Positions 2 through 19,041 of a stretch of 19,041 nucleotides of DNA are shown piece after piece. A program made the position numbers and the translations under genes. The DNA is from an uncultured Verrucomicrobiota bacterium (GTDB taxonomy: Bacteria > Verrucomicrobiota > Kiritimatiellia > RFP12 > UBA1067), in the NCBI GenBank assembly GCA_946631535.1, contig CAMPAF010000021.1, positions 1 to 19,041 on the forward strand, read 5' to 3'. Numbering within the stretch: the first letter of the stretch is position 1; each line of letters opens with the position of its first letter. The notes below the pieces were generated by a model that was given only the letters and a program-made list of their open reading frames with translations, was not told the origin of the DNA and ran no database searches.

Positions 2-1414
2 CCGTGGTCGGCCGGCGTGTACCGCAGCGACGACGGCGGACGCACCTGGCAGCCACGCAACAACGGCCTCAAGCAACTGGCCGGCAAGCCGGGCAGCAAC
101 GACCAGCTCTGCACCTGGACGGACTGCCTCGCCGTCGATCCGCACAACCCGGACGTGGTCTGGGCCGGCGGCGCCAGCTGGTGGTACACGGGCGTCTACG
201 GAACGACAGACGGCGGGCTCAACTGGAAACGCGCCTTTCCCAACGAACGGCCCGGTTGGATCAAGTTCTGGGGACCGACCGTTATGTGCCTGTCCCTCTC
301 GTCCGCCGACCCATCGCGCCTCGCGTTCGGCACGTCGGGCATGGTCTACGTCACGGAAGACGGCGCGGCCACCTGGAAGCAGCGCTACTCGGAGGAGCGC
401 ACGGACGGCAAGCTCGTCGGCACAGGCCTCGAAGTGACGTGTCTCCATTCAGTGACGCCCTCGCGGCACCAACGCGGGAAGTTCTACCTCGGGTATTACG
501 ACATCGGCTTGCTGGTCACAGACGACAATGGCCGCACGCTCACGCGTCAGATGACGGGCGTGCCCGGCAAGTTCTCCAACTCGTGCTTCTGCGTGGCCGA
601 GGCTCCCGATGACCCGCTAATAGTCTGGGCCGGGTTCGGCTCGTGGGGTGGCGGCGGTTCGGGTTGCGTGGCGAAGAGCCCGGACGGAGGCCAGACGTGG
701 TCGCCCTGCACGAATGCGGCGAGCGGCTGGATCGACCCGCAGGTGCGCGACCTGACCGTGCTCGGCGAGAAGCCGAATTACCACCTTCTGTATGCGAGTC
801 CGAAAGGTCTGATCGAGAGCGCGAACGGCGGCGCGACATGGGCACCGAGCGATCCTGCGGCATTTCCCGAAGCGCCGCGCGTACGGGCGCTCGCGCACAG
901 CGGCGACCGCCTCTACGCAGGCGTGGCAGGTACGAAAAATGAAGGAGGGGCAGTTTACGGTCGCGCAGGAGCGCGACCCTCCCCGGCGTGGCGACGTCTC
1001 ACGCCGCCCACGCTCAAGATCGGCGCGATCAAGTCCGTGGCGGCCGAGGGCGACCGCGTGCTCGTCACGGCGCGGAGCGAATGGCGCAACCACACGACCT
1101 ACGAGGGTGGCACGTGGCTCAGCACGGATGCGGGCGCGACGTGGCGCAAGGTGTTCTCGGACAAGTTCTGCGGCGCGGCGGTCATTGCGGGCGGCGAGCT
1201 GTTCGTGTCGCTCACGGACCATCCGTACCATGACCATTGCGTGGGCGGCGGCGTGATCCATTCGCGAGACGACGGCGTCACGTGGACCCATCTCGATGGC
1301 CCCGGTCTTCAGAACTGGAACGTCTCTGCGCTAGCCGTCGATCCGTTTGACAAGCAGACGCTCTGGCTCGGTACGGGCGGCAATTCCGTCTTCGTCGGCC
1401 GCCTCAACAGGTGA
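2..1414 (+). CDS. Asp-box (BNR) beta-propeller protein, 5' end missing
   Basis: The frame is open to the left edge, so the true start lies outside the window; the GTG at 17 is only an internal valine codon. The protein carries about eight Asp-box-like blade motifs, including [39 protein letters not shown] and SRDDGVTW. These alternate with segments such as LAVDPHNPDVVWAGG and LAVDPFDKQTLWLGTGG, which is the pattern of GH74/VPS10-like propellers and of exported BNR proteins. No catalytic residue can be assigned, so it may be a glycosidase or a binding protein. The stop at 1412-1414 overlaps the end of the convergent MBL gene by 11 bp. Positions 944-986 hold a GC-rich palindromic repeat, translated here as GRAGARPSP between two propeller strands. 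The fold is confident; the function is not. Confidence 0.85.
   Translation, partial: PWSAGVYRSDDGGRTWQPRNNGLKQLAGKPGSNDQLCTWTDCLAVDPHNPDVVWAGGASWWYTGVYGTTDGGLNWKRAFPNERPGWIKFWGPTVMCLSLSSADPSRLAFGTSGMVYVTEDGAATWKQRYSEERTDGKLVGTGLEVTCLHSVTPSRHQRGKFYLGYYDIGLLVTDDNGRTLTRQMTGVPGKFSNSCFCVAEAPDDPLIVWAGFGSWGGGGSGCVAKSPDGGQTWSPCTNAASGWIDPQVRDLTVLGEKPNYHLLYASPKGLIESANGGATWAPSDPAAFPEAPRVRALAHSGDRLYAGVAGTKNEGGAVYGRAGARPSPAWRRLTPPTLKIGAIKSVAAEGDRVLVTARSEWRNHTTYEGGTWLSTDAGATWRKVFSDKFCGAAVIAGGELFVSLTDHPYHDHCVGGGVIHSRDDGVTWTHLDGPGLQNWNVSALAVDPFDKQTLWLGTGGNSVFVGRLNR
944..982. repeat. REP-like palindrome inside the propeller gene
   Basis: Positions 959-978 form a perfect 8-bp hairpin: GGTCGCGC, loop AGGA, GCGCGACC. 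It is followed by CTCC at 979-982. GGAG at 944-947, followed by a decayed GGGCA, looks like the remnant of an inverted partner. The 23 bases at 962-984 are identical to the reverse complement of 18409-18431 in the glycyl radical enzyme gene. The reading frame passes through uninterrupted. Confidence 0.8.
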
Positions 1415-11428: not shown

Positions 11429-13702
11429 TTACCTCAACGGAACCTTTGTCACGCGGTCAACCGTCAGGTCGGCGCGGCGGAAGACCGAGAGCTTGCAGCG
11501 CTGCTCGGCCGGATTGAACGGACGGCACCCGAGCTCCTCGTAGTAGCTGACGAGGATTTCATCCTTCGTGAAGAAGATCGACGGGTAGCCGTAGCTGCTC
11601 ATCGGGTCGTTCTCGATGTCGCAGATGTACTCCCACGTCTTGCCGTCGTCGCGGCTCACGCCGAGCGAGAGCGGGCAGCGCGGATACTGGTGCTGCGGGC
11701 CGGGGAACGAGTTGTCCCACGCGATGAACACCCACCCCGTGTAGGGGTCCTTCCGCAGGAAGTACGGCGCGCACGGGCTCTTCAGCGTCGTGGGACGCTC
11801 CGTGCTCCACGTCTCGCCGCCGTCGCGCGACTCGGTCTCGTAGAGATACCCCTTCCCCGTGCGCGCGAGCATCTTGATCGTGCCGTCCCTGCACTCGAAC
11901 GTGGTCGGCTCGCAGAGCTGGTCCGCGACGGTCGTCTTGAGCCACTTCCCCTCGTGCCACGTCTGCCCCTCGTCGTCCGAGTAGAACGCGTTCACCCAGC
12001 CCACGGTCTCGAGCTTCTTCCCCAGCAGCTCGTTCGGGTGGAGGGAGAAGGAGACGAGGATGCGCCCCGTCGAGAGGCGGATCGGGCGGTCGTTCATCAG
12101 GTAGAGCCGGCGGTTGTCCTCCGAGAGCGGCACCTTCCCCTCCCACGTCTTGCCTTCGTCCTTCGAGAACGACACGTAGAAGTTCGCCGCGCCGAGCTTG
12201 TTCGAGAGGATGTTCTGCGCGGGCGCGCTCCACACGTTCATGAGCCGCCCGTCCTTGAGACGCAGCGGGTTCGTGCCGCCGCCGGACGTCGGCGCGCCCT
12301 CGGACCGCGCGAACGGGTAGAGCTTGCGCCACGTCCGCCCGCCGTCGTCGCTCTTGCGGTACCAGCCCTTGATGCCGCAGACGATCCCGCCGTCCTTGTG
12401 CGCGAACAGGCACGCGCCGCACGAGCCCGGCCCCTTCGCGTCGAGGTACACGCGCACGGGCTTGCCGTCCAGCCCGATGCGCTTGTCCGTCTCGTCCACG
12501 CGGAAGCGCGTGCAGACGACCGACTGCTTCCGCGCGTCGTCCCAGTACTTGATGTACGTGGTCGCCACCACCGTGCCGTCCGGCAGCAGGTGGATGCCCG
12601 GATAGCCGCAGTCCCACCCCGCGTAGCTGTGCAGGAGCTTCACGCGGTACGTGCCCTTCGTCTCCTTGGACTTGATCGCCGCGTACGGCCCCACCCACGC
12701 CACGAAGTGTCCGCGCGTGGGCGACTTCGGCGCCATGTCGCGGAACACGATCACGAGCCGCCCGTCGGGCAGCTGCACGCCCTGGTGGCGGTCGCCCGAA
12801 AGCGCCCACGGCGCGTCCTCGGCCTTCGACCACGTCTTGCCCTCGTCGCGGCTGAACATCATCAGGCTGCACCCCTCGTGCGTGTTCTCGCGGATGAGGC
12901 AGCAGAGCTCGCCACCGTCCGGCGAGCGGAACACGTACGGCTCGCACGGGTCCTTGCCCTCAACCGCGCAGACCGACTTCGGCTCGCTCCACGTGAAGCC
13001 GCCGTCCTTCGACACGCTCTGTAGCACGCCCAGCGGCGAACGGTCGATCCCCTCCGGCCCCGAGTGGTAGAGGCCGAGGTACGAGCCGTCATCCAACTGC
13101 ACGACCGACGAGAACGCCATGATGCAGCGGAACTTGCGTCCAAGCGCCGGCATCTCCTTCCACGTCTTTCCCTCGTCCTCGCTCATCACGGACGGCATCG
13201 CCTCGCCCCACTCGCGGTGGTCGCGGCAGTCCTTCGCGTCCGGCCGCATCTTCGCCTGGCTCCACACCCAGAGACGCGCCTTGCCGTCGGGTCCGACGAG
13301 GCGGTAGATGCTCGGACAGTTCACGTGCCGCCTGAAGCCTTCCGGGAAGCGGTCGTCGATGCGCGTCCACGTGCGGCCGCCGTCCGCCGACTCAGCCGCC
13401 GGACCGCACCAGCCGCCGTGCGGCGTGCACCACACCGCGATGATCCGTCCGTCCGGGAGAAGCGCCGTGGTGGGATGCCCCTGATAGAGGTCGGGACGCC
13501 CCTCGGCCACGATCACGTCCTTCGTCTTGTCGCCCGAGAGGTCCACCCACGGGAACGTCTCGGCGATGCGCGCCGTATTCCTCGCGCCGTTCGCGCCCAT
13601 GAGCCCCGCAGCCTTGCCGCCTGTGACAACCGCACGTTCCACTCCCGAGAGGGTCGCGCTTATCGCGACCAACAACAACAAAACACAGAACTGTTTCTTC
13701 AT
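11429..13702 (-). CDS. Exported sialidase-like protein with two tandem Asp-box propellers
   Basis: The product is 757 aa. [20 protein letters not shown] is a signal peptide, which sets the start at 13702; the longer frame beginning near 13924 overlaps the DUF2752 gene and is not export-like. Nine Asp boxes are visible: [65 protein letters not shown] and SRDDGKTW. Their spacing, and repeated segments such as [15 protein letters not shown] and [17 protein letters not shown], indicate two six-bladed propellers in tandem. GH33 sialidases use an arginine triad and a Tyr/Glu pair; I could not place these residues with confidence, nor a clear RIP motif, so sialic acid specificity is inferred. It starts 13 bp after the DUF2752 stop, has no Shine-Dalgarno site, and is followed closely by the GH42 gene. 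Confidence 0.82.
13648..13670. repeat. Possible decayed REP-like hairpin in the sialidase signal-peptide region
   Basis: GGTCGCG (13652-13658) and CGCGACC (13664-13670) flank a 5-base loop, and GAGGGTCGCGCT at 13649-13660 matches the REP-like unit found at 18412-18423. It is translated as VAISATL at the end of the signal peptide. The loop differs by one base in length, so chance similarity in GC-rich DNA is possible. Confidence 0.4.
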
Positions 13703-13709
13703 AGGAAAG

Positions 13710-13718
13710 ACTATGTCA
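13710..13718 (-). promoter_or_regulatory. Weak candidate extended -10 box before the sialidase gene
   Basis: The minus strand reads TGACATAGT, an extended -10 with CATAGT matching TATAAT at four of six bases. It sits exactly seven bases before the ATG at 13702, the same spacing as at the esterase gene, and no ribosome binding site is visible. The TGA is also the stop codon of DUF2752, so this may be coincidence. Confidence 0.3.
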
Positions 13719-14063
13719 AAATGTCGCGCCTGGAAGGTTTCGCGCGATTGTAAAGAGGACCATGACCCAGAATCCGATGTAGGGATACCATTTCTTGTTC
13801 GCGAATGGCCCCTTGTATAGACCCAGAACGAAAGGCGGCATGAAAACGATAAGGAAGCAATTGAACCTGAGCGCCTGCATGATGTCACCGTGGAGCAGAC
13901 AATGCAAAGCCCGCTGAGCGCCACACCCCGAGCACTTCAATCCCGTCACCCAATTGAAAAAACACCTTGGGAACAAACGGTATTCTTGAGGATCGAAAAA
14001 GAATAACGCTACAACATAGGCGACAGCAACCGCTGCCGCACCATACGTAAGCCACTTTTTCAT
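13716..14063 (-). CDS. DUF2752 small membrane protein
   Basis: The product is 115 aa. The diagnostic motif is [33 protein letters not shown]: Cys-x-x-Cys-Gly-x-x-Arg followed by HGDxxxAxxxN, the DUF2752 signature. Three hydrophobic segments are seen: residues about 7-24, 68-85 and 95-108. Function is unknown for the family; DUF2752 genes are often next to TM2-domain genes, as here. The start at 14063 is 8 bases from a strong hairpin whose lower stem contains the only AAGG that could serve as a ribosome binding site. Base composition is visibly more AT-rich than that of the glycosidase genes on either side. Confidence 0.85.
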
Positions 14064-17464: not shown

Positions 17465-19041
17465 TCAGAATCCTTGCATCACGTTCTCGGCGCGGCGGAT
17501 GTAGGCGTCCTGCTCGACCTTGCTCATGTCGTTCCAGCGCACGTTCCAGCCACACACGCGCACCTGGAGGTTCTCGTACTTCTCGGGGTGCGCCTGCGCG
17601 TCGCGCAGCTCCTCCGCGCTGAACACGGTGAACTGGATCACGCTGCCGCCGTTCCCGTGGAATTGCTGGACGAGCGCCTTCATCACCTCCAGTCCCTTCT
17701 CGCCGGAACAGACCGACGGGTGCAGCATCACGTCGAGCGGGTAGTCGCCCGGCAGCTTCGTCACGTCGGAGGAGGCGAGCGTCGCCACGAGCGCCGTGGC
17801 GCCCTCGGTGTCCACGCCCATCGTGGGCGAGAGGTTCTTGCTGATCTCCTCACCCTTCCTGCGTCCGTCGGGCGTCGCGCCCGTCTTCCTGCCCTGCTCG
17901 ACGAACTGGCGCGCGCTGTGTCCGGAGGCGAGGAACACGCCACCCCGCGAATTGGGTTTACCGTCCAGCTGCGCGGCGAAGCAGTCAATCAGCGCCGAGC
18001 CGAGCGCGTTCGCCTCGGGGTCGTTGTTGCCCCACTTGCGCTTCGAGCGCAGCATCCGCAGGCGCAACGCCTCGTGCCCTTTCCAGTTTGCCGCCAGGAC
18101 CGCGCCGAGCTCCGCGAGCGACATCTCCTTCTTCTCGTAGACGATCTCCTTCACTGCGAGGAGCGCGTCCACCGTTGTGCCAAGCCCTGCGGAGAGGATA
18201 CCGGTGTTGTTGCCGCGCGGACAGCCGTTCGCGAAGCCGTCCTTGCGCGTCTTGAGCGCGTGCTCGGTGGAGAGCGTCATCAGGAGCGCGGGGTTCACCT
18301 CCGGCAGCGCCTTCTCGAACTCGAACGCCACCTTGCGGCAGCGGTCCGTCGTCTCGGCGAGCCGCCGCAGGTACTCGGCCTTGAAGGAGGGGAATGACGC
18401 TTCCCACTGGGGAGGGTCGCGCTCCTGCGCGTCCGCGGTCGCGCGGGAGCGCGACCCTCCCGGCTGGCCGTTCTGCGCGGTCGCGCGGGAGCGCGACCCT
18501 CCCGCCACCTCGGACAGCATCTTCTCCACGGGCTTCAGGAAGTTCAGATACCCGCATCCCGTGCGGTTGCAACTGTCGGCGAGGTCGAACTCGTAGCACC
18601 CGCGCAGGACCATCGTGCGGCAGTCTTCGTCGGACGCGCCGCACCACTTCTTGAGCGCCCGCGCGGCCGGCTCCTCGCCGATGAAGGCGATGGACCGGTG
18701 GCGGCGCGCCATGTCGAGCATCTTCCTCCACGCCCAGTCGGGCGTGTTCGGCGCGACCTTCACGAGGAACTTGGGCGTCGTCAGCGCGCACTCGTCCATC
18801 ACGTCGAGGATGATCTTCGAGACGTGGTTGAACGCGCTCGCGCCGTCCTTCGTCGTGCCGCCGAATCCCGCCGGCTGGTTCCAGTAGTTGTTGACGGAGC
18901 CCCACTGCCAGAGGAAGTGCTTCAGCTGCTCGCGGAACTCGGCCTCGGTCGTGCGGCCCGCCGCGATGTCGGCGTCGTAGTACGGCGTGAGGAACACGTC
19001 GAGCTCCGTGAGCGAACGGCACTGGATGCCGTCGAGGTGCT
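17465..19041 (-). CDS. Glycyl radical enzyme (PFL-like family), 5' end missing
   Basis: The frame is open to the right edge; about 524 C-terminal residues are present, whereas family members usually have about 750-850. Residue numbers here count from the internal valine codon at 18997. Near the C-terminus, RVCGWN (Gly at 17549-17551) followed by QDAYIRRAENV is the glycyl radical loop. LRGCYEF (Cys134, codon at 18596-18598) sits where the family has its thiyl-radical Cys in GCxE. HGNGGSVIQFTVFSAEELRDAQAHPEKYENLQVRV is the standard lead-in to the radical site. RVCGWN and GCYEF differ from the textbook RVAGY/GCVEP forms, so the reaction (lyase, dehydratase or decarboxylase) cannot be assigned. 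About 34 residues at 165-198 are encoded by REP-like repeats, at a loop that is variable in the family. An activating radical-SAM enzyme is not in the window. Confidence 0.85.
   Translation of the reverse strand, partial: HLDGIQCRSLTELDVFLTPYYDADIAAGRTTEAEFREQLKHFLWQWGSVNNYWNQPAGFGGTTKDGASAFNHVSKIILDVMDECALTTPKFLVKVAPNTPDWAWRKMLDMARRHRSIAFIGEEPAARALKKWCGASDEDCRTMVLRGCYEFDLADSCNRTGCGYLNFLKPVEKMLSEVAGGSRSRATAQNGQPGGSRSRATADAQERDPPQWEASFPSFKAEYLRRLAETTDRCRKVAFEFEKALPEVNPALLMTLSTEHALKTRKDGFANGCPRGNNTGILSAGLGTTVDALLAVKEIVYEKKEMSLAELGAVLAANWKGHEALRLRMLRSKRKWGNNDPEANALGSALIDCFAAQLDGKPNSRGGVFLASGHSARQFVEQGRKTGATPDGRRKGEEISKNLSPTMGVDTEGATALVATLASSDVTKLPGDYPLDVMLHPSVCSGEKGLEVMKALVQQFHGNGGSVIQFTVFSAEELRDAQAHPEKYENLQVRVCGWNVRWNDMSKVEQDAYIRRAENVMQGF
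18411..18502. repeat. Cluster of three REP-like units (inverted doublet plus one) inside the glycyl radical enzyme gene
   Basis: Unit a (18411-18434) is GGAG, then GGTCGCGC, loop TCCT, GCGCGTCC. Unit b (18437-18460) is the reverse orientation: GGTCGCGC, loop GGGA, GCGCGACC, then CTCC. Unit c (18479-18502) repeats unit b. Units a and b are two bases apart and together make a near-perfect 52-bp palindrome at 18410-18461. The 29 bases at 18434-18462 recur exactly at 18476-18504, 42 bp (14 codons) away. The encoding gene reads b and c as GGSRSRATA and a as QERDPP. Confidence 0.85.

Follow-up and report, generated by a model that had tools for sequence, protein, structure and literature searches.

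The window, by which we mean the whole stretch of 19,041 nucleotides analysed here (positions 1 to 19,041 of contig CAMPAF010000021.1, forward strand, from an uncultured member of the Kiritimatiellia, phylum Verrucomicrobiota), ends in a gene for a glycyl radical enzyme (GRE) that is read from the minus strand and whose relatives in the Protein Data Bank include trans-4-hydroxy-L-proline dehydratase (6vxc). Within this gene, positions 18410-18504 hold three hairpins, each with a GGAG foot, an 8-bp stem and a 4-nt loop. Two of them stand head to head with a spacer of 2 nt, the arrangement of a REPIN, i.e., an inverted pair of repetitive extragenic palindromes (REPs), and the third is a single unit. 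The features of the gene are:

17465..19039, minus strand: open reading frame (ORF) of the GRE; PFL-like at E 2.6e-49, Gly_radical at E 6.4e-20; 524 amino acids seen, 5' end outside the window
18410..18462, minus strand: REPIN of two GGAG-foot REPs head to head; an inverted repeat that encodes about GGSRSRATADAQERDPP; present too in the orthologue of genome G005 (L094)
18411..18434, plus strand: REP unit a; GGAG foot, loop TCCT, one stem mismatch (T opposite T, third pair)
18437..18460, minus strand: REP unit b; GGAG foot, perfect 8-bp stem, loop TCCC
18479..18502, minus strand: REP unit c; GGAG foot, perfect 8-bp stem, loop TCCC; direct repeat of b
18463..18507, minus strand: extra 45 nt (15 codons), spacer plus unit c, ends approximate; missing from the 91%-identical G005 orthologue

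A preliminary description of this DNA had proposed three GGAG-foot hairpins with units a and b head to head, and all of them were located, unit a with the mismatch given above. Its claim of an in-frame insertion was likewise borne out: the minus-strand GRE frame stays open across the hairpins, and both PFL-like and Gly_radical are matched. As single-stranded DNA, positions 18405-18508 fold at -49.4 kcal/mol (z -6.84), a value as low as which was reached by none of 200 shuffles. An AlphaFold model of the window GRE, calculated from a 30-row alignment, is poor (mean predicted local distance difference test score, pLDDT, 56.5) and agrees with the above only in that it puts the insert between two helices. 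Judged by its sequence, the insert is a REPIN that would be translated in frame, and its setting is extraordinary.

The insert lies in a loop flanked by ...KPVEKML and FKAEYLRRL. Elements have landed in this loop repeatedly, and different repeat families are found there in different relatives. The orthologues in G005 (91% identity) and G001 (80%), two of the 97 related genomes compared, contain one REPIN each, and the window is longer than G005 by 45 nt. Among the best 120 of 1686 database matches to the GRE, 100 loops could be parsed and 20 did not fit the pattern; the parsed loops comprise 11-59 amino acids (median 27). Counted with overlaps, their peptides are of the GNGERG (18), GGAG (17), GTAG (11), KVESVKC/TLNS (11), SGGV (5) and LQLQLE (4) types, and 36 of the 100, most of them short, fit no repeat class. 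In P0004, a GRE 89% identical to that of the window, the loop holds NGRDARCPSATGETPVVPV, the peptide of the REP family that flanks a gene for a REP-associated tyrosine transposase (RAYT) in glucuronate isomerase (see below). At this place, close homologues have a single REPIN, repeats of another kind or a loop that is short, which agrees with the variable loop assumed in the preliminary description; the segment is not common to all of them. In L037/L098, P0048, P0070 and P0115 the loop is taken up by a GNGERG/GNGEWG repeat that looks different from the others. Eight further GRE homologues (P0122, P0125, P0127, P0132, P0143, P0161, P0163 and P0184) have 1100-1260 amino acids and are N-terminal fusions to other enzymes, with beta-lactamase-like, esterase, beta-helix and fucosidase partners.

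Elsewhere, too, orthologues differ at REP sites by whole codons. In the PurF loop, the REPIN peptides of G001 and G005 differ mid-way, five relatives are shorter by about 15 residues and others hold other sequence, and in an FkbH-like protein an 18-residue insert appears as a clean gap in four relatives. An in-frame tandem array of a 30-nt REP unit (10 residues) was seen at L290/L310, with copy numbers that differ between G001 and G005.

The window's REPs belong to a family with a GGAG foot, GGAG-GGTCGCGC. At up to three mismatches, the REP 23-mer has four matches in the window and none in each of 200 shuffles. Outside the GRE gene, the window contains:

959..982, minus strand: fourth full REP copy; lies in frame within a BNR/Vps10-like ORF and encodes GRAGARPS; shared with G001 (L151)
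13639..13660 (about), plus strand: half REP unit, 86% inverted match inside a sialidase-like ORF (11429-13924, minus strand); weak, may be chance

The unit is dispersed in the nearest genome, G001 (25% of sampled 31-mers common with the window), where the 23-mer occurs in 472 copies (249 + 223; up to three mismatches) and its reversed control in none, a finding that upholds the earlier reading as REP and REPIN. At up to two mismatches, 27 of the 97 relatives have any copy (G001 393, G005 258, G004 122, G006 84, others at most 33), and by this distribution the family looks clade-bound. Several of the relatives' records come from the rumen or another ruminant gut. In a survey free of any family definition (all stems of at least 8 bp with loops of 3-5 nt in 764 kb of G001), the 4-mer 5' of the stem was GGAG in 89 of 588 strand-wise hairpins, GTAG in 14, and the next commonest occurred 11 times; a third-order Markov control gave 182 hairpins, two with a GGAG and one with a GTAG foot. 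Although the search did not demand pairing at the third position of the stem, 159 of 166 units have a Watson-Crick pair there (T-A 83, A-T 56, C-G 20). This pair therefore covaries, since 66.7 such pairs are expected if the two sides are independent.

The family has what defines REPs in being a short palindrome with a conserved 5' foot and more than 100 copies; the foot is GGAG in place of GTAG or GTGG, with GTAG as a minor second class in G001. REPIN structure, an inverted pair with a short spacer, is seen in units a and b and in two-unit +- clusters (12 of 116 in G001, 5 of 23 in G005). The CGTC end of Rickettsia palindromic elements is not found in the family, and CGTC-foot hairpins of any kind make up 9 of the 588 in the G001 sample. 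An extragenic location, which gives REPs their name, does not apply either, as 63 of 110 assessable G001 clusters lie in frame in genes.

This last number comes from a test in which a coding model trained on long ORFs scored the 180-nt flanks of each REP cluster. The G001 sample comprised 1,114,892 bases in 60 pieces, with 167 units in 116 clusters, six of which lay at piece ends. Clusters were counted as in frame when both flanks were coding in the same frame with no stop between, and this was so for 57% of the assessable G001 clusters and for 59% of random sites. The remaining clusters had one coding side (25), neither (21) or flanks in different frames (1); the respective shares of random sites are 27%, 10% and 3.4%. 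In G005, with 36 units in 23 clusters (one at an edge), 14 of 22 were in frame and 60% of random sites. Coding flanks in different frames of one strand occurred in one of the 132 assessable clusters of both genomes. GGAG-foot REPs are not depleted from genes, though they are somewhat enriched in non-coding DNA. The preliminary description had called the insert unusual on the grounds that REPs are normally intergenic; this understated the case, in that more than half of the assessable G001 clusters lie in frame in genes. Among the hosts, named by reading and without family search, are PurF, methionine synthase (two inserts), the FkbH-like protein (three), a transporter, a GH2-like enzyme with five units and a second glycyl radical enzyme; these are only part of the hosts found. 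Clusters with a GTAG foot were in frame in two of nine cases in G001 and in two of five assessable ones in G008, numbers too small to support an effect of the TAG of the foot on coding location.

All six frames of the consensus REP unit are open, and all are used. In the 77 in-frame clusters the first unit is read as GGSRSCAT in 35 cases, VAQERDP in 17, GRAGARPS in nine, EGRAPAR in seven, RVALLRD in five and SRRSATL in four (chi-square 54.3, p 1.8e-10). The single-unit clusters (n = 45) gave, in the same order, 15, 10, 8, 5, 4 and 3 (p 0.019). In our view, this bias reflects a filter that favours hydrophilic, linker-like peptides. If the elements preferred targets with a C upstream, the favoured frame would be RVALLRD, which is rare, and this cause was rejected. 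The core length is 2 mod 3 in 14 of 15 in-frame +- REPINs, so that an inserted REPIN, made up of this core plus two conserved bases on each side, would have a length of 3n.

Not only REPs but also transposase genes were found in frame within other genes. Y1_Tnp genes are present in 74 of the 97 relatives, and reading showed that several of these genes lack a stop of their own and form part of a larger ORF. Pfam identified host domains on both sides of the RAYT in glucuronate isomerase (L330, L318), in a FAD_binding_2 protein (L317), in a SNF2/Helicase_C protein (L315) and in the restriction-modification genes L364 (ResIII, EcoEI_R_C) and L365 (N6_Mtase, Eco57I). A host domain on one side was matched in L176 (FAD_binding_2), L316 (SNF2, Helicase_C), L313 (PFL-like) and L363 (Eco57I above the cut-off); the other side rests on likeness to L317 for L176, on a contig join for L313, on likeness to L365 for L363 and on reading alone for L316. 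L363 and L365 are Eco57I-type methylases from different families of the order; by reading, their RAYTs share one position, between FYTPREIV and KILDPACGSGAF. Y1_Tnp is listed by Pfam in L330, L317, L315, L316, L313, L318, L321, L363, L364 and L176; the RAYT of L365 gave no Pfam Y1_Tnp match and was recognised only by a RAYT profile. This profile, built from seven RAYTs, five of them in-frame cases, had 32 matches of at least 99 bits in the 97 genomes, 10 of which lie inside a host ORF, the five seeds included. The HUH motif and the Tyr motif are invariant in the 7-row RAYT alignment A2.

REPs stand on both sides of the in-frame RAYT in L330, L317, L176, L315 and L313; those of L315 have a GGAGC foot. 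L320 and L321 are terminal RAYT fusions. Nine (L319, L322-L329) of 17 loci chosen for long open frames round a Y1 gene showed no sign of a host gene by reading. The Pfam tables of eleven chimeric ORFs contain no intein or splicing domain, and introns were not searched for; from its sequence, the in-frame RAYT element appears to be simply translated. In-frame REP-like peptides also occur in the RAYT domain of L330 and, after about residue 886, in L364, where they lie between the HUH and Tyr parts; going by the predicted proteins, this is a repeat inside a transposase inside an enzyme. A same-group RAYT with an in-frame TGA lies near a contig start at L366 (G018:C172), and at L367 (G036:C233) sequence resembling glutamyl-tRNA reductase is followed, after a masked stretch, by a Y1-like segment in an open frame.

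One such gene occupies the very loop in which the window has its REPs. In G071 (L313), the N-terminal half of the GRE runs in frame into a RAYT at exactly the window's insert loop and continues up to the contig end. The last 55 nt of this contig recur at the start of a second G071 contig, which encodes the C-terminal half, giving one ORF of 1131 amino acids across the exact overlap. The two contigs are joined by their overlap in the assembly, and the ORF may therefore combine different strains. The same 55-mer is found without a RAYT in two relatives, G064 and G075 (four loci, each gene twice), and the best 120 of 668 database matches to the GRE-RAYT protein include no further GRE chimera.

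The glucuronate isomerase offers the broadest comparison. Among the best 120 of 1510 database matches, 20 are isomerase-RAYT chimeras, all broken at the same host position in the alignment; PNHVH, the HUH motif, is present in 20 of 20 and the Tyr motif in 19 of 20. P0206 equals the P0191 isomerase except for one residue and the C terminus, and has no in-frame RAYT. On a quick tree of 90 rows (the 20 chimeras plus 70 of 100 plain isomerases), RAYT presence changes at least 10 times, eight of these changes being forced by well-supported branches, and shuffled labels need 18.3. Host and RAYT identities correlate (rho 0.64; none of 2000 permutations as high), and an old insertion with repeated loss therefore seems more likely than many separate insertions. 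Some pairs suggest replacement of the RAYT (P0199/P0208: host 75%, RAYT 45%). The RAYT part is constrained in the one pair compared, G005 versus G015 (dN 0.103, dS 1.113; host parts dN 0.168, dS 0.731). The predicted structure of an isomerase-RAYT protein consists of two confident domains with low-confidence, REP-encoded joints (pLDDT 71.6, predicted template modelling score 0.55). Foldseek matched it first to glucuronate/uronate isomerases and an amidohydrolase; next, at E 1.7e-3, came 4er8, in which a REP-associated tyrosine transposase binds a REP hairpin. The GGGA-foot hairpin flanking the isomerase RAYT occurs eight times in the G001 hairpin sample, although this genome has only weak matches to that RAYT group, making these copies orphan REPs.

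Association with hairpins is confined to a RAYT subgroup, in which each locus has its own REP family. In the best loci of this group (L333-L357, in-frame and standalone RAYTs counted together) the same hairpin family lies on both sides within 700 bp in 24 of 25 cases, as against two of 56 control loci of the same geometry; five weaker RAYT-profile loci (L358-L362) have no flanking hairpin family. For REP families of the order other than the window's, RAYTs flanked by the same REP were identified. One standalone Y1 gene of G081, a RAYT, lies between GGAG-foot REPINs of another stem. The preliminary description had taken the GGAG foot as a sign of RAYT-mobilised REPs. Hairpins with this foot do flank the RAYT of G081; GGAG as a RAYT foot is unconfirmed from print, as the main texts of PMC2817692, PMC3733652, PMC6006769 and PMC8266576 contain no word that starts with GGAG. 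L175 and L187 represent another type of Y1 gene, the C-terminal ALPSGQ repeats of which vary between G001 and G005.

From these data we conclude, with a probability of about 0.82, that the insert consists of a REPIN and a further REP of a GGAG-foot family that multiplied in a small Kiritimatiellae clade, was copied by a RAYT and survives in tolerant loops. Like other REPs, those of this family would be copied by an HUH transposase of the RAYT type that works on single-stranded DNA. A copy that disrupts the frame or the fold would be lost, and stop-free copies with a length of 3n in tolerant loops would survive, translated as Gly/Ser/Arg-rich linkers. RAYT genes may persist in the same manner, as translated internal domains between REP-encoded linkers. 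We go further with less assurance, at odds slightly better than even: the RAYT transposons of the clade may live inside proteins, a stopless REP-RAYT-REP unit being translated from the host start, with REP linkers that let the host enzyme fold round an active transposase. Such a life would resemble the hiding place of an intein without the splicing, and the short REPs of the window GRE would be the non-autonomous form. For REPs and in-frame RAYTs alike, we infer mobility, translation and activity from sequence.

Several observations weigh against the conclusion that the window's REPs are RAYT-copied survivors in tolerant loops. The preliminary description had suggested a search for a RAYT gene, and none was found for this REP family: no Y1 gene examined in the nearest genomes (three of three in G001, five of six in G005) is closely flanked by the window's REP family, the nearest copies of which lie 1.35 kb from a Y1 gene in G001 and 1.43 kb from one in G004. 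Its mobiliser may be lost, unassembled or different. Nor are GGAG/GTAG-foot hairpins enriched round Y1 genes generally (33 loci, 10 hairpins in 95.6 kb, 0.105 per kb, compared with 0.143 per kb in G001 and 0.098 per kb at the GRE loci). The coding test used our own model in place of a standard gene caller, and the G001 sample was drawn largely (58 of 60 pieces) from contigs listed as REP-bearing. When hairpins with a foot of another kind were scored in part of this sample, 149 of 282 assessable ones proved to be in frame; as these are coding about as often, the coding share alone says only that REPs are not excluded from genes. Non-coding sites are somewhat enriched (21 of 110 G001 clusters versus 10% of random sites), and the dominant frame could owe something to target choice. 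Clean presence or absence at the DNA level is seen at few sites, and several alignments are ragged; L151/window, L303/L196 and L146/L255 are not clean.

One alternative is that the palindromes are mobilised by an agent that is not a RAYT. This has been proposed for CGTC repeats and Rickettsia palindromic elements, which have no dedicated transposase, and it would explain why no cognate RAYT was found for the window's family. We nevertheless consider it unlikely, given that GGAG-foot REPs flank the standalone RAYT of G081 on both sides, that a GGAGC foot flanks the in-frame RAYT of L315 and that the peptide of a RAYT-flanking REP family occurs in the GRE loop of P0004. The in-frame RAYTs, for their part, could be domesticated domains with a host function in glucuronate isomerase instead of selfish passengers. 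The strong constraint on the RAYT part between G005 and G015 and the correlated host and RAYT identities would fit such a role; the repeated changes of presence on the isomerase tree, the absence of a RAYT from P0206 in spite of its near identity to P0191, and the occurrence of RAYTs in unrelated hosts do not, and domestication seems to us doubtful, though it deserves consideration.

If selection acted on the peptide, the units being a functional linker or tag that spreads as a protein module, a preference for certain frames is what one would see, and GGSRSCAT and VAQERDP do make up 35 and 17 of the 77 in-frame clusters with four to nine for each of the other four frames (p 1.8e-10), a bias that persists in the single-unit clusters alone. 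All six frames nevertheless occur, orthologues lack the peptide or have unrelated ones instead, it is the DNA pairing that covaries, and 46 of the 110 assessable G001 clusters have one coding flank or none, all of which makes peptide selection very unlikely. We give even less credence to short motifs such as DNA uptake signals, or to slippage of a local low-complexity stretch, in place of insertion. Some relatives' loop contents (GNGERG type) do resemble tandem repeats, and the 30-nt arrays of L290/L310 vary in copy number between G001 and G005. The window unit, in contrast, is a dispersed palindrome of 24 nt, or about 50 nt as a REPIN, that is absent from 70 of the 97 relatives (up to two mismatches), and units appear as many-codon gaps relative to orthologues.

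In compact bacterial genomes, the stretches between genes are usually regarded as the refuge of mobile DNA. The elements described here persist within genes, and the reading frames of some metabolic and restriction enzymes take in a transposase gene as an internal domain. In-frame REPs and RAYTs are a natural record of insertion-tolerant protein loops, and with a transposase adjoining its own REPs, how REPs spread becomes directly testable.

Published work describes REP heads as GTAG and GTGG (PMC2817692, PMC6006769) and most REPs as intergenic (PMC3733652). In-frame REPs are known in several species, most GTAG cases being in Opitutus terrae, one of the Verrucomicrobia (PMC3733652), and the classic in-frame palindromes in unrelated proteins are the Rickettsia palindromic elements (PMC10969869, PMC3733652). 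For in-frame RAYT genes, we found no report in the open-licence literature on in-frame transposases, RAYT fusions, Kiritimatiellae REPs or in-frame Verrucomicrobia palindromes; the available sections of PMC4853749, on another bacterium with many mobile elements, do not show them. The survey in PMC6006769 put aside its longest transposase proteins as fusions or annotation errors, which suggests why RAYT fusions escaped notice.

Compared with known systems, inteins and IStrons share with the in-frame RAYTs that mobile genes lie inside host genes without abolishing them; IStrons come nearest in strategy but splice, whereas the chimeric ORFs described here have no splicing domain in their Pfam tables. 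Rickettsia palindromic elements resemble the present REPs as in-frame palindromes in unrelated proteins and differ in being families of about 150 bp with a conserved peptide ORF and a CGTC end. In TnpA-REP subclass 2.4, REPs are described in frame inside RAYT genes, between HUH and Tyr (PMC6006769). Its motifs NH[IFV]H and YIxNNP resemble those of the RAYTs studied here, and the RAYTs of L330 and L364 likewise contain REP peptides; the host of the REP is there the transposase itself. The intragenic GTAG/CGTC REPs of PMC3733652 lie in frame in known proteins, as ours do; what is described there is REPs in ORFs, here it is also whole RAYT genes in host ORFs. With REPs, REPINs and REPtrons and their RAYT (TnpA-REP), the system of the Kiritimatiellae has in common a 4-nt foot followed by a hairpin, head-to-head pairs, many copies and REP-flanked RAYT genes. 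It differs in its GGAG foot, with GTAG second, where the known feet are GTAG and GTGG, in coding insertions that are as frequent as at random sites, and in RAYT genes that themselves lie in frame in host genes. In-frame REPs were already known, and the window is a heavy case of them; the in-frame RAYT genes are the larger finding.

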